DNA from: Acidimicrobiia bacterium
Lineage (GTDB): Bacteria > Actinomycetota > Acidimicrobiia > Acidimicrobiales > Poriferisodalaceae
Assembly (NCBI GenBank): GCA_022820925.1
Contig: JAJEEO010000007.1
Location: forward strand, 149,279-213,278
DNA: 64,000 nucleotides
Direction of reading: 5' to 3'
Shown piece after piece: positions 49,658 to 56,226 of the stretch (its first letter is position 1; every line of letters starts with the position of its first letter). The translations under genes were made by a program, and so were the position numbers. The notes under the pieces were generated by a model. It had not been told where the DNA came from, searched no databases, and saw nothing but the letters and a program-made list of their open reading frames with translations.

Positions 49658-51598
49658 TCAGGGCAGTGCGAATGCGACGAGCGCGGCGTCGGCGCCGCGA
49701 CCGGTGGCGATGACGACATATTGCTGCCCTGATTCGGTGATGTACGTCATCGGGTTGGCGCTTGTCGGGAACGGCGTTGCGCCGCGCCAGAGCTCGTCCC
49801 CCGTCGCGCTGTCAAATGCGTAGAGGTACGGTTCGCCGCCACCCACGAAGACCAGCCCGGCGCCGGTCGCGAGCGGCCCGGGATTGCCGACCGTGCCCAG
49901 GCGCGCCGGCAGCTCAACACCGCGCAGCAGCGGATGGTTGCGAATCTCGTCGCGGCCTTCGCCGAAGGGCACCTTCCACGCGATCTCGCCCTCGTTGAGG
50001 TCGATGGCCACCAGATGCGCCCACGGCGGCTTGGTGAGCGGGATCGGGCCGAGTTCGCTCTCGGGCGACTCCACGGCGCCCGGTCCGCCGGCCTCGGCGA
50101 ACATGACGCGAATCGCGCCATAGGGGCAGTTGTTGCTGTAGGCGACGTCGACGCGCGGGTCGTCGCCTCGGTTCTCGCAGATCTGGTTGGTGTCGGCGTC
50201 CTCGGATGTCCGCACGTACAGCATCCCGGTCTCTGGGTCGAACGCCGCGCCGCCCCAGTTGGCGCCGCCGCTGCCTCCCGGCCGCTGCAGCGTTCCCTGC
50301 AGGCTCGGCGGTGTGAAGAGCGGGCCCAGCCGGAATCGCTGCATCTCTGCCACCGCGAGTGCATGGATCTCCGGTGTCAGATCGTTCGCGTCGTCCAGCG
50401 TTACGCCCTGCTGGGCGAACGGCGGAGGCTTCGACGGGAACGGCTGGGTCGGGTATAGCTCTTCGCCCGGGACGTCGGTGAAAGTGTCGACCGCGCGCTC
50501 GGTGATCGGCCACACGGGCTCGCCGGTCACCCGATCGAAGACGTAGGCGAAGCCCTGCTTGGAGACCTGTGCCACCGCATCGATCTTCCGCCCGTCCACG
50601 GTGATCGTCACCAGGTTCGGTGCGGCAGACAGGTCGTAGTCCCACACGCCGTGATGCACCGCCTGGAAGTGCCACTGCCGCTCGCCGGTGCGTGCATCGA
50701 GCGCCACCAGCGATTCCGCAAACAGGTTTGCTCCCTTGCGCCGCCCGCCCCAGTAGTCGCTGCTCGGCGTGCTCGTCGGCACGTAGAGCAGTCCTCGCTC
50801 GGCATCGAGCGACATCAGCCCCCAGACATTGGCGTGACCGGTGTAGCGCCAAGACTCGTCTTCCCAGGTGTCCGCCCCGAATTCGTCGCTCGCTTGCGGG
50901 ACGGTGAAGAACACCCAGCGCCGCTCGCCCGTCCGGATGTCGAACGCCTGCACCGTGCCGGGCGGGTCGAACTCGCGCTGCACCCCGTCGGGCACCCGAC
51001 TCCCGACGATCACCAAGTCCTCGAACACCACCGGAGGGGAGGTTTGGTCGAACTCGAAGCGGGTGACCTCGCGGCCGTGCCCCTCGGTCAGTAGTACCTC
51101 CCCGAAATTCGGATCCAGTTCGCCGGTCGCGGCATCGATCGAGTACAGCCGGTCGCGGCTGTTGAGGAAAACGCGCTTGTCGTCGCCGTCGCTCCAGTAG
51201 GCGATGCCCCGGTGCTTGAAGCCGGTCGGCCCCGCACCCACCGGCCCGCCCTCGTAGGCCTTCGGGTCGAACACCCACAGCTCAGTGCCTGTTTCAGCGT
51301 CGAGCGCAACCACCCGCGTGTACATGGTGGACAGATACAGGATGCCGTCGACCATGACGGGAGTGGCCTGGAACGGACCCGGCTGCGTGTCGTATTCGGG
51401 AAGAAACCTCTCATTGGGCTCCCACCTCCAGACGATCTCCAAGTCGTCGACGTTGGCGACCGTGATCTGATCGGCAGTGGCGTACTTGGTGTGCGCCTGA
51501 TCCGAACCCACGAATGGCCACTCAATCGCGGCGTCGGTTTGCTGGGTGCACGCGGCTGCCGCGAATGCCAAGGCGGCGGAGACCAGAAGGGTCTTCAT
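49658..51598 (-). CDS. PQQ-dependent dehydrogenase-like beta-propeller lipoprotein
   Basis: LAFAAAACTQQ lipobox; EIVWRW, VVALDAETGTELWVFDP, LVALDARTGERQWHFQAVHHGVWDYD, GGANWGGAAFDPETGMLYV. Confidence 0.9.
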   Translation of the reverse strand: MKTLLVSAALAFAAAACTQQTDAAIEWPFVGSDQAHTKYATADQITVANVDDLEIVWRWEPNERFLPEYDTQPGPFQATPVMVDGILYLSTMYTRVVALDAETGTELWVFDPKAYEGGPVGAGPTGFKHRGIAYWSDGDDKRVFLNSRDRLYSIDAATGELDPNFGEVLLTEGHGREVTRFEFDQTSPPVVFEDLVIVGSRVPDGVQREFDPPGTVQAFDIRTGERRWVFFTVPQASDEFGADTWEDESWRYTGHANVWGLMSLDAERGLLYVPTSTPSSDYWGGRRKGANLFAESLVALDARTGERQWHFQAVHHGVWDYDLSAAPNLVTITVDGRKIDAVAQVSKQGFAYVFDRVTGEPVWPITERAVDTFTDVPGEELYPTQPFPSKPPPFAQQGVTLDDANDLTPEIHALAVAEMQRFRLGPLFTPPSLQGTLQRPGGSGGANWGGAAFDPETGMLYVRTSEDADTNQICENRGDDPRVDVAYSNNCPYGAIRVMFAEAGGPGAVESPESELGPIPLTKPPWAHLVAIDLNEGEIAWKVPFGEGRDEIRNHPLLRGVELPARLGTVGNPGPLATGAGLVFVGGGEPYLYAFDSATGDELWRGATPFPTSANPMTYITESGQQYVVIATGRGADAALVAFALP

Positions 51599-53337
51599 GA
51601 AGGCGTCCGCTCCACCTCGACGGTCACGATGTCGATGCCTGAGTACTTCCGGTGGCGCACCGTCGAAGCGAAGTGACGCAGCAGACGGAGCGAAATGGTG
51701 TGTTCCTCGGATGCCGGGGCACGTTCGCTCACAAAGGTGATCCGGTCTTCGAGATTCTGCGCTTCCGCTGACGTCCGCAGCTCCAGTTCGATGCTCGTTG
51801 CCGAGGGCCGCGCGGTGACGACGACGCGTGAGGGGGACGGATCCTCGCCAGACTCGCTTTCCTCCATGAGACTCAGCAGCGATTCCTCGCCGACGAGCCT
51901 GAGCCGATTCGACTCAGCCTCTGCCCAGCCGGAACGTGCTGCGATCTCCACCAAGAACTCGTCGATCCGAGGCAGTGCCTCTGCATTCAATGCCGTCTCG
52001 AGGCGGCGGCGCTTCCGGCCGCCCGACTCGATGTAGGCCGTCAGCAAGATCGCGATCAGTGTGCCGACCATCATGCCGTTGCCGAGCAGTGTCCCCCAGG
52101 CGCCGCCGATGATGGTGCTGAGCAGGTCGGAGCCCTGCAGCCCCACGCCGACCGCAACGGCGACACCGATCACCACGGCTTTCTGGGATGGCAGGCCATC
52201 CTGCAGCACAGAGCGGAGCCCCTCCACGAACAGCAGCCCCATGATGATGAGCAAGTAGCCCGAGGCCACCGCGCTGGGAACTGTGAGCAGGATTGTTGTC
52301 AGTTTCGGTGTCAGCACCAGCGCGATGAGGATGGTGCCGATGCAGTACCCGACCCTGCGCGAGGTCACGCCCGTGAACTGTGCGAGGGAGATCGACGTCG
52401 CATCCATGGTTCCGACGTTCAATGTTCCCGCGAGCCCGCCGAGTAGCGAGCCCACGCCCACGGTGTTGACTGTGCCCTGCACGAGGCGGTAGTCGGCCGC
52501 CCCCGGATCCCGTCGTGATACCCGCTGTATCACGACGCTCGTAGTCATCGCCTTGATGGTGACGGCTAGCGAGACCATGAGAAAAAGCGGCAGCAGTGCC
52601 CAGAATTCGGCCCCTGGGGTCAGGTCGAGCCCGGGAAGCTCCGGCTTCGGCACGGCGAGCCAGGCAGCGCCGCCGACGCCCGCGGGGTCATACAGTCCGA
52701 ACAGGCCGGCTGCGATGGTCGCGACGACAATTGCGATGATCGGCGACCACAGCCGGAGGAGTCCCCGGGCTCGCAATGCCAGCAGTGCCGCTACCAATAC
52801 GGTGATGAGTGCGACAGCGGGCGCCGCGACGCTCGGAACGTCCTCCGATGTCGTTTCGACACTCTTGACGACCGCCTGCATGACGCCGATCGCGATCAGC
52901 ATGATGACGATGCCCGAGACCGTCGGCGTAATGATCCGGCTCAGGCGATGCAGCCACCTGGCCAAGGCGATCTGGAACAGGGCAGTCGCAACGACCAAGG
53001 ACGCCAGCGTTTGTGGCCCGGCACTGTCGACGGCCAGGATCGCCACAGCCAAGTAGCTCGGCGAGATGGCCATCAGCACGTTGTGGCCCCCGCCGACCGG
53101 TCCGAGGCGGGCTGCTGAGATGACGGTCGCGATGCCGCAGACCATGATCGCCGCCATCACCGACCAAGTGGCTTGGCGTTCGCTCAGATTCGTCGACTGC
53201 ACGAACAGCGACATGGTCAGCACCGTCGGCGCCAGGGCGATGACGACGCCCTGAATGCCCATCCCCAACGCCAGCGCAAATGAGCACTTCTCGTCCGGTT
53301 CGTAGGTGATGCCCTCGCCCGGTGCTACTGCGGCCAC
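51595..53337 (-). CDS. NCS2 (solute carrier family 23) permease with C-terminal HATPase/anti-sigma-like domain
   Basis: GGGHNVLMAISPSYLAVAIL, VGSLLGGLAGTLNVGTMDATSISLAQFTGVTSRRVGY; C-term LPRIDEFLVEIAARSGWAEAESNRLRLVGEESLLSLMEE...SLRLLRHFASTVRHRKYSGIDIVTVEV; ATGA overlap with the PQQ gene. Confidence 0.85.
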   Translation of the reverse strand: MAAVAPGEGITYEPDEKCSFALALGMGIQGVVIALAPTVLTMSLFVQSTNLSERQATWSVMAAIMVCGIATVISAARLGPVGGGHNVLMAISPSYLAVAILAVDSAGPQTLASLVVATALFQIALARWLHRLSRIITPTVSGIVIMLIAIGVMQAVVKSVETTSEDVPSVAAPAVALITVLVAALLALRARGLLRLWSPIIAIVVATIAAGLFGLYDPAGVGGAAWLAVPKPELPGLDLTPGAEFWALLPLFLMVSLAVTIKAMTTSVVIQRVSRRDPGAADYRLVQGTVNTVGVGSLLGGLAGTLNVGTMDATSISLAQFTGVTSRRVGYCIGTILIALVLTPKLTTILLTVPSAVASGYLLIIMGLLFVEGLRSVLQDGLPSQKAVVIGVAVAVGVGLQGSDLLSTIIGGAWGTLLGNGMMVGTLIAILLTAYIESGGRKRRRLETALNAEALPRIDEFLVEIAARSGWAEAESNRLRLVGEESLLSLMEESESGEDPSPSRVVVTARPSATSIELELRTSAEAQNLEDRITFVSERAPASEEHTISLRLLRHFASTVRHRKYSGIDIVTVEVERTPS

Positions 53338-53354
53338 GGAGGTCGAGTCGTCTG

Positions 53355-54428
53355 CTACACCGAGTAGGCGAAGTCGCGCAGTGCGGCAGCGGTCGCCGCG
53401 TACACCTCGGGCATGGCGCCGCGGAAGATCACGTCGCCGGCGTGGCAGGTGCCGTTGACCGTGCGGGCTTGCACGCTGTTGCCCGCCGCTGCCAGCTTGC
53501 GGTAGTAGGCGAGGCCTTCGTCACGAAGGGGATCCAGCTCGTTCACCGAGATGACGTGCGGAGGCAGGCCGGTGAGGTCGTCCGCGGTAGCGTGGAGCGG
53601 CCATGCCAGCGGGTTGGTGCGGTCTGGTCCGCCCAGGTCGTACACCTTGGCTATGCCACCCATGTTCTCGCAGTCGAGGAAGTACTGGTTGTTCTCATGC
53701 AGCGACGGCAGGTCGGCGGGCGGGTCCGCATACGCCCCTGATATATACGGGCACTGCGCAAACACGCCGTCGATCATGTCGAGATAGCCGTCGCGCTTCG
53801 CCTTCAGCGCTGTGGCAAGCGTCAGGTTCCCGCCGCCCGACTCACCCGAGACGGTGACGGTCGACACTCCCAGGGCGTCCTTGTTGGCTGCAATCCACTG
53901 CAGGCCCGAAGCGCAGTCGTTCAGGCCGGCGGGGAACGGGTGGTTGCCCAGTTCGCCGCCGCCGTTGCGGAACTCGACGCCGATGGCGACCAATCCGAGC
54001 GCCGCCAGCTCGTCCCGCCAGCGCACATAGGACAGCCCCGATGCCTTCAGCAGCACCATGCCGCCGCCATGGATGTGGTAGATGCACGGCTGCGGGCCCG
54101 CAGCGTCGGTCTGGTTGTGGATGTAGAGGTTGATGTCGTTGCCGTCGACTCCGCTGATCACCTCGGTTCGCGACTCCACGCCTTCGACCGGCGGCAAGCT
54201 TCCGAAGAGGGCGTCGAACAGCATCTCGAAGCCGGGCTCGGCCTCGTTGACCCAGGCGTACAGATCTTCCATCGACGTCTCTGCTGTCGCGGGCGACGGC
54301 TCTCCGTGGCCGCCCATGCCGACCATCTCCAGCACGGCGATCATGCGCGGGTCTGCCCGCGGATCGTCGGCGATGGTCATGTCCGGATCGCCTAACCGTC
54401 CGGGTCGATGTACTGCCGTAGTGCTCAT
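53355..54428 (-). CDS. alpha/beta hydrolase, HSL/lipase-like
   Basis: CIYHIHGGGMVLL (HGGG), TVTVSGESGGGNLTLATALKAK, catalytic His in NGTCHAGDVIF. Confidence 0.88.
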   Translation of the reverse strand: MSTTAVHRPGRLGDPDMTIADDPRADPRMIAVLEMVGMGGHGEPSPATAETSMEDLYAWVNEAEPGFEMLFDALFGSLPPVEGVESRTEVISGVDGNDINLYIHNQTDAAGPQPCIYHIHGGGMVLLKASGLSYVRWRDELAALGLVAIGVEFRNGGGELGNHPFPAGLNDCASGLQWIAANKDALGVSTVTVSGESGGGNLTLATALKAKRDGYLDMIDGVFAQCPYISGAYADPPADLPSLHENNQYFLDCENMGGIAKVYDLGGPDRTNPLAWPLHATADDLTGLPPHVISVNELDPLRDEGLAYYRKLAAAGNSVQARTVNGTCHAGDVIFRGAMPEVYAATAAALRDFAYSV

Positions 54429-54546
54429 GGGAGATCCCCCGTCCGCCCGGCGGCCCCGTGCCCCCGGATGTGGCGATGACAGTAGCCCCGCCCAGCGCTG
54501 CCCCAGTTGCGTCGTGCAGGGCAGGTCGACTGGTGCGTCGATACGT

Positions 54547-56226
54547 CTAGAGGTCTGGTGAGTCTGGACCGGTCAAGCGGCGGGGGGAAGAGGGACCGCC
54601 TTCGGGTTCGTCGACGAGCAGACGACGGGCGATGTGTTGGGCTTCATCAAGCGAGCCGACCATGTGCTCGGGCGGGATGCGACGCAGGGCGTTGAGAGAT
54701 TCGAGGGTGGCGGCAGGCGCACCATCGAGACTGAGGACGATGCACGTCGCATCGCCGTCGGCCGCAGTATCGATGAGTTGCTCGATGACCAGTGCGGCGC
54801 TGTCGTCGATGTACTCGGTCTCGGAGAAATCCAGGATCACGACCTCGTGGCCGACGATGTCGTCGCCGATGGTGCGGATGAGCTTGCTGGACGAGGCCAC
54901 GGTGAAGCTGCCGCGCAGCTTGACGATGCCGGTGCGCGCCGAATACGGGCTGATGCCGTGCGACTCGGCGCTGTGCTCGTACAGGAAGATCTGGTCGAGC
55001 AGAGGCACAGACACGACACTGTCGAGCTGGAGGCGTTCGAATTGGCGAGCGCCGATCATGCCGGCCACGATCAGCCCCACCGCAACAGCTGTCACCAGGT
55101 CCACGAACACCGTGATCCCGAGCGTGGTCAGCATGATCAGCAGGTGCTCGCGCTGTATCCGCCGAAGCCGTGCCAAGAAGCGCCAGTCGATGAGCTGCCA
55201 GCCGATCACAGCGAGCATTCCTGCCAACGCAGCGTGCGGCACATAGGCGAACAACGGCGCCAGTCCCAGCACCAGCGCCAGAAGCGTCAGCGAGCGAACG
55301 ATGGGTGAGATTGCGGTACGAGATCCCATTCGCCAAGCCAGAATCGACGAGAGGAAGGTCGGGCTTCCCGGCAGGCCGCCGATCAGGCCGGCTGCGACGT
55401 TGCCGATGCCGGTGCCGAGCAAGCCCTTGTTCGGGTCGAGTTGCGTGCGAGTCTGCGCATCCACCGCCAATGCGCCCAGCAGGCCTCGCACCGTGCTGAG
55501 CAGCGCAATGGTCAGTGCCGGAACCACCGCACCTGCCAGGAAGGTCAGCGAGAGCTCCGGACGCTGCAAGTCGGGCAGCGAGCGCGGAATGCCCTCAAGT
55601 GTCGGCATGTCGCTCAGCCACAGGACGTGGAGAAGGGTCGCGGCCAGCAATGCTGCGATCATTGCGGGCAGGAATCTGCGCAGTCGCTTCGGCCACAGCA
55701 CCGAGACGCCCAGCGCCGCCAAGCCGACGGCGAGGGCACTGGCATTGAGCGTGTCAAACGCTTCAGGCCAGTTGCGAATCGCGTTCAACGGCTTGGTGAT
55801 CTTGACCGGATCGCCCATGAACGCGTTGGACATCGAGATGACTGTCATCACGCCTATTCCCGACGTGAACCCTGCGAACACCGAGTACGGCGTATAGGTG
55901 ACGTAGCTGCCGATGCGCAGCACGCTCAGGATGAGCTGGATTACTCCGGCGAGCATCGCGATCGTGAACGCCTCGGCGGCGGTCTCGGCGTGCGTCGCGA
56001 CGACAGCGGCCATGGCAATGGCCAAGACGGCGCTCACCGACCCCATCTGCGGCCGTGATCGTTCGAAGACGCCCACAAAGAAGCCCACGGCGAGAGCGCC
56101 GTAGATGCCGCTCGCAGCTCCGAGCCCCGACGCGACGCCGTGCGTCACAGCGGGCGTAATCGAGATGACCGCTGCGGTGACACCGCCCGAGACGTCCCCA
56201 CGAAGTGTGTGCAGGTCGTAGCTCAT
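54547..56226 (-). CDS. SulP family transporter with C-terminal STAS domain
   Basis: SVFAGFTSGIGVMTVISMSNAFMG, NVAAGLIGGLPGSPTFLSSILAWRMGSRTAISPIVRSLTLL; STAS: GIVKLRGSFTVASSSKLIRTIGDDIVGHEVVILDFSETEYIDDSAALVIEQLI. Confidence 0.93.
   Translation of the reverse strand: MSYDLHTLRGDVSGGVTAAVISITPAVTHGVASGLGAASGIYGALAVGFFVGVFERSRPQMGSVSAVLAIAMAAVVATHAETAAEAFTIAMLAGVIQLILSVLRIGSYVTYTPYSVFAGFTSGIGVMTVISMSNAFMGDPVKITKPLNAIRNWPEAFDTLNASALAVGLAALGVSVLWPKRLRRFLPAMIAALLAATLLHVLWLSDMPTLEGIPRSLPDLQRPELSLTFLAGAVVPALTIALLSTVRGLLGALAVDAQTRTQLDPNKGLLGTGIGNVAAGLIGGLPGSPTFLSSILAWRMGSRTAISPIVRSLTLLALVLGLAPLFAYVPHAALAGMLAVIGWQLIDWRFLARLRRIQREHLLIMLTTLGITVFVDLVTAVAVGLIVAGMIGARQFERLQLDSVVSVPLLDQIFLYEHSAESHGISPYSARTGIVKLRGSFTVASSSKLIRTIGDDIVGHEVVILDFSETEYIDDSAALVIEQLIDTAADGDATCIVLSLDGAPAATLESLNALRRIPPEHMVGSLDEAQHIARRLLVDEPEGGPSSPRRLTGPDSPDL

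Follow-up and report, generated by a model that had tools for sequence, protein, structure and literature searches.

An NCS2 permease encoded in the window (the whole 64,000-nucleotide stretch of contig JAJEEO010000007.1 analysed here) appears to represent a widespread NCS2 (SLC23-fold) subfamily with a covalently attached C-terminal domain of the predicted RsbW/SpoIIAB fold, the ATP site of which would be destroyed. Such a combination of an NCS2 permease and an RsbW-fold pseudo-ATPase is conserved in many phyla and has apparently not been described; no report of an NCS2-HATPase fusion, nor of one among sponge xanthine/uracil permeases, was found in the literature searched, which is not exhaustive. 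The best reading, and one that we regard as probable, is that of a divergent NCS2 subfamily whose fixed tail lacks catalytic activity and serves regulation or dimerisation.

The permease gene (51595-53337, minus strand) encodes 580 aa, of which residues 1-400 constitute the NCS2/SLC23-fold permease domain (52138..53337, minus strand; PF00860 E 7.7e-33 over residues 26-400). The final membrane helices extend to about residue 439 and are followed by the C-terminal tail (residues ~443-580; 51598..52011, minus strand), which was delineated by HATPase_c_2, AF2, and hhalign; the tail stretch quoted in an earlier, sequence-only reading of this DNA corresponds to residues 449-580 (51598-51993). The same reading had placed the permease one gene away from a SulP transporter, and its coordinates for both are correct. 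The SulP transporter (54547..56226, minus strand; 559 aa; Sulfate_transp PF00916 E 2e-55) carries a C-terminal STAS domain (PF01740, residues 431-528, E 4.4e-9), and its closest NCBIfam model is BicA, with 337 bits far under the cut-off of 880. The single gene between the two, located 17 bp upstream of NCS2, encodes an alpha/beta hydrolase of the hormone-sensitive-lipase type (53355..54428, minus strand; PF07859 E 1.1e-34). On the other side, a PQQ-type quinoprotein dehydrogenase gene (49658..51598, minus strand; PF01011 E 2.7e-190) is co-directional, with a 4-bp overlap at the NCS2 stop, and all four genes—SulP-STAS, hydrolase, NCS2, and dehydrogenase—form one co-directional run on the minus strand.

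When the whole NCS2 protein was scanned, the tail region matched no Pfam family at E < 1; scanned alone, the window's tail matched HATPase_c_2 (PF13581) with E 0.017, and matches to this family were found in 6 of 18 diverse members, reaching E 3.8e-6 in the best-scoring homologue. Alignment with hhalign to canonical RsbW-like proteins of related genomes gave E 1.3e-4 over 127 columns, at a probability of only 54%. A PDB search by sequence alone with tail profiles returned no match up to E 10, and structure comparison was therefore needed. The best PDB match of the AF2 tail model (mean pLDDT 81, pTM 0.75) was RsbW (6m37; E 4.9e-8, TM 0.86 by target), followed by UsfX and SpoIIAB, with all three ranking over histidine kinases. 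The lid region of the model (residues 526-529 and 534-545), which includes the invariant N528, is of low confidence. As modelled, then, the tail is an RsbW-like alpha/beta sandwich. The sequence-only reading had assigned it to the RsbW/SpoIIAB-type HATPase fold and had named structure prediction as the check, with a model lacking this fold as grounds for abandoning the idea; the HATPase_c_2 matches and the AF2 match to RsbW instead uphold the assignment.

Motif counts from 86 aligned tail members, mapped on canonical members, indicate that the ATP-binding elements have been lost throughout. The N-box Asn was found in 0/86 members, its place being taken by Ser (68), Thr (8), Ile (5), Cys (3), or Val (2), and of the glycine boxes, G2 (GxG) was found in 0/86 and G1 (DxG) in 2/86. 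The caution that the tail looks degenerate was thus well founded, and the Asn is indeed missing, but the residue in its place is not the proposed Leu: the profile alignment puts Ser489 at that position. In Bergerat-fold ATPases, binding of Mg-ATP should require the N-box Asn and the glycine boxes, although pseudo-ATPases can occasionally bind nucleotide by atypical modes. With these elements absent, Mg-ATP binding by the tail is not expected; the tail would be a pseudo-ATPase, and it should not phosphorylate any partner. The N-box Glu, which may be the equivalent of the SpoIIAB catalytic Glu, is kept in 86/86 members. Invariant residues particular to the tail are E484, E485, N528, and H562 (86/86 for the last three), and an RLLRH helix and Y/F565 are retained by the family as well. 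Compared with the RsbW/SpoIIAB/UsfX anti-sigma kinases, the tail has the same fold, element order, and N-box Glu, but it differs in lacking the ATP boxes, in being fused to a permease, in having an invariant motif of its own, and in that no kinase activity is expected of it. The suggestion that it is a binding pseudo-kinase, with the fold kept and the ATP boxes lost, is plausible.

The permease half scored 114 bits against PF00860 (Xan_ur_permease; cut-off 27), and the full-length AF2 model (pLDDT 84.5) gave UapA, SVCT1, and UraA as best fold matches; with a profile score over the cut-off and an SLC23 fold, the protein is an NCS2 permease. The tailed permeases share the transporter fold and PF00860 with these nucleobase and ascorbate permeases (UapA, UraA, and SVCT1) but differ from them in the extra C-terminal domain and in sequence: the canonical NCS2 signature [QEP]NxGxxxxT[RKG] was found in 0/86 aligned tailed members, and the column of the TM8 Glu is occupied by Lys in 62/85. 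Because the canonical substrate motif is lost, the permease probably transports something other than a standard nucleobase.

The same C-terminal domain is encoded by each of the four NCS2 genes in the window's genome, and within the window's genus almost every NCS2 match over the cut-off falls in a frame that could accommodate the tail. A search with the tail profile detected the domain in 10 of the 61 close relatives, every one a member of this genus, and across the class in 31 of 396 genomes, one or more of them through a marginal match. A scan of GTDB contigs with the tail yielded at least 468 loci, of which 80 were retained for study, 75 of them outside the window's genus; the retained loci come from Acidimicrobiia, Chloroflexota (including SAR202), Gemmatimonadota, Latescibacterota, Binatia, Gammaproteobacteria, Acidobacteriota, and Opitutales. 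In most complete members the frame is at least 575 aa, with the permease preceding the tail; shorter tailed frames are found where contigs end and in a small number of assemblies. In one case (L032 / L052, G002:C9), the orthologue of an NCS2 paralogue is a 100-aa frame in which the N-terminus is joined to the tail at a shared TISL stretch, the result of either an internal deletion or an assembly error. To judge from bin names, the tailed permeases often come from sponge-associated genomes.

Two kinds of neighbour recur at these loci. A DUF1330 gene lies beside the tailed NCS2 at 31 of the 75 loci outside the genus, at a distance of 52-357 bp and on the same strand in 28; it is the commonest immediate neighbour (31 loci among L094-L168) and is also found in this position in the window's genus (L050, L051, and L053-L055). 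A monomodular PKS cluster is located near the tailed NCS2 at 15 of the 75 loci, and at several loci of the class, with KS, AT, DH, methyltransferase, ER, KR, and ACP domains (as pieced together from two partial examples) and with accompanying PPTase and hydrolase genes. The coding ends of the tailed NCS2 and the PKS overlap in L221, L224, and L226. Monomodular, methyltransferase-containing type I PKS genes of the sup-like kind, often accompanied by a hydrolase and a PPTase, adjoin the tailed NCS2 in L215, L218, L221, L224, L226, L229, L048, L111, L112, L118, L122, L125, L127, L129, L136, L139, L142, L145, L146, L162, L163, and L168. No PKS lies alongside the window's own NCS2 gene.

The sup-type PKS is among the most abundant PKS types of sponge metagenomes. 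SupE of the sponge sup PKS cluster (ABE03914) is reported with the sup/swf PKS, and the tailed NCS2 adjoins a monomodular PKS with a methyltransferase domain, a PPTase, and a hydrolase, a likeness of gene context. Together, the frequencies of DUF1330 (31/75) and of the monomodular PKS (15/75) suggest, as a lead, that the tailed family may be the SupE permease of sponge-symbiont sup clusters. That sup-type PKS clusters and DUF1330 genes recur beside the tailed NCS2 hints weakly at lipid-related, polyketide-related, or other organic-anion traffic by the permease.

As for what the tail does, a fixed cytosolic regulatory module would fit these features, one that acts without any kinase activity and probably either keeps the two permease subunits of a dimer paired or engages a cytosolic ligand or partner. 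Its putative contact surface would comprise the EE, N-[LI]-E-D, RLLRH, and H-[QR]-[KQ]-Y elements. The role proposed is modelled on the STAS domains of the fold-related SulP/SLC26 carriers: SulP/SLC26 proteins and BicA have, like the tailed NCS2, a related transporter fold and, at a cytosolic C-terminus, a domain drawn from the partner-switch toolkit, the tail being STAS in the former and a HATPase fold in the latter.

A rival, though rather unlikely, reading takes the tail for a pseudo-kinase of an anti-sigma-like or STAS-sequestering type, which would bind a free-standing STAS protein or another soluble regulator and couple transport state to gene expression, as in a transceptor. Its structural matches fall in the anti-sigma group (RsbW, UsfX, and SpoIIAB), and two free STAS proteins are encoded in the window's genome. 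Furthermore, in a published sponge swf fosmid (Della Sala et al., 2013; PMC3908369) a SupE-like permease adjoins a PKS and is flanked by two anti-anti-sigma ORFs, which would bear on the tailed family if its candidate identity as SupE holds. However, no free STAS gene was found among the recurrent neighbour clusters of the 75 tailed loci.

The sequence-only reading had gone further in proposing that the NCS2 tail and the SulP STAS domain are the two halves of a membrane-tethered partner switch through which the transporters cross-regulate. This we consider highly improbable, even though an RsbW-fold domain does lie close to a STAS protein here and the SulP-hydrolase-NCS2 block is conserved in the window's genome and seven congeners. 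In two congeners a divergent dioxygenase-like gene parts SulP from the hydrolase-NCS2 pair, and no SulP lies close to any of the further NCS2 copies examined in the genus. (In L042, G003:C94, SulP is duplicated within the conserved block, the tandem copies sharing 62% and 87% identity with the window's SulP.) A looser arrangement, with SulP 1.1-3 kb upstream of the tailed NCS2, occurs in genus g46 of another family. Elsewhere the proximity disappears: SulP is near the tailed NCS2 in 5 of the 80 retained GTDB loci, all five of the window's genus, and in none of the 75 outside it (flanks of up to 8 kb, some contigs being shorter), nor at any examined tailed locus of families f32, f52, and f63. 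At the genome level the genes do co-occur, with SulP in 28/31 tail-bearing versus 180/365 untailed genomes of the class (Fisher p 6e-6, phylogeny not corrected for and few clades involved), but the conserved HATPase-STAS linkage across genomes that would mark a partner switch was not observed, SulP being nearby only in the window's genus (g1) and g46. Two near-complete genomes, G372 (a single contig with four tailed NCS2 genes) and G234, encode no SulP at all.

The window's genome also contains a canonical partner-switch module elsewhere (G000:C16:60163-62163; L169, L175), consisting of STAS, a response-regulator PP2C phosphatase, and a canonical HATPase. Since SulP lies near the tailed NCS2 only in g1 and g46, is absent from two tailed genomes, and coexists with this separate module, its proximity in the window is best seen as a matter of genus-level operon history, and SulP as an operon neighbour within the window's genus rather than an obligate partner of the tailed NCS2. 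With the ATP site lost in all 86 tails as well, the pairing of the two proteins as partner-switch halves is not borne out. The proposed phosphorylation target is also insecure: the DFSETEYIDDSAALVIEQLI stretch is present in the SulP STAS domain, but equating its Ser with the SpoIIAA phosphosite hinges on the alignment register. In an alignment of an RsbV-like STAS, a C10 STAS, and the window's SulP, Asp falls at the phosphosite position when the SulP sequence is paired without gaps to the RsbV-like STAS of the genome (YISSAGL), a shift by one residue puts Ser there, and alignment with BicA gives a third register, so that the position appears ambiguous.

A view of the tail as a decayed fusion that has lost all function is hardly credible: the catalytic motifs are gone, but the nine invariant columns among 18 diverse members (mean column identity 50%) and the ten among 56 members across phyla would not survive drift, and simple decay was rejected on account of this strong conservation.

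The preferred reading therefore remains that of a fixed, non-catalytic tail on a divergent NCS2 permease. Whether it can be extended to transceptor-like permeases found across phyla that took up an anti-sigma-factor fold as a permanent regulatory tail independent of ATP, paralleling the STAS tails of SulP carriers, and that serve the sup polyketide/lipid pathway of sponge symbionts, is doubtful enough that we put this forward tentatively. More broadly, the findings suggest that both halves of the partner switch, STAS and HATPase, came independently of each other to serve as the cytosolic tails of transporters related in fold, and the tailed family may offer a way into the study of the uncharacterised permease encoded at sup-type PKS loci.
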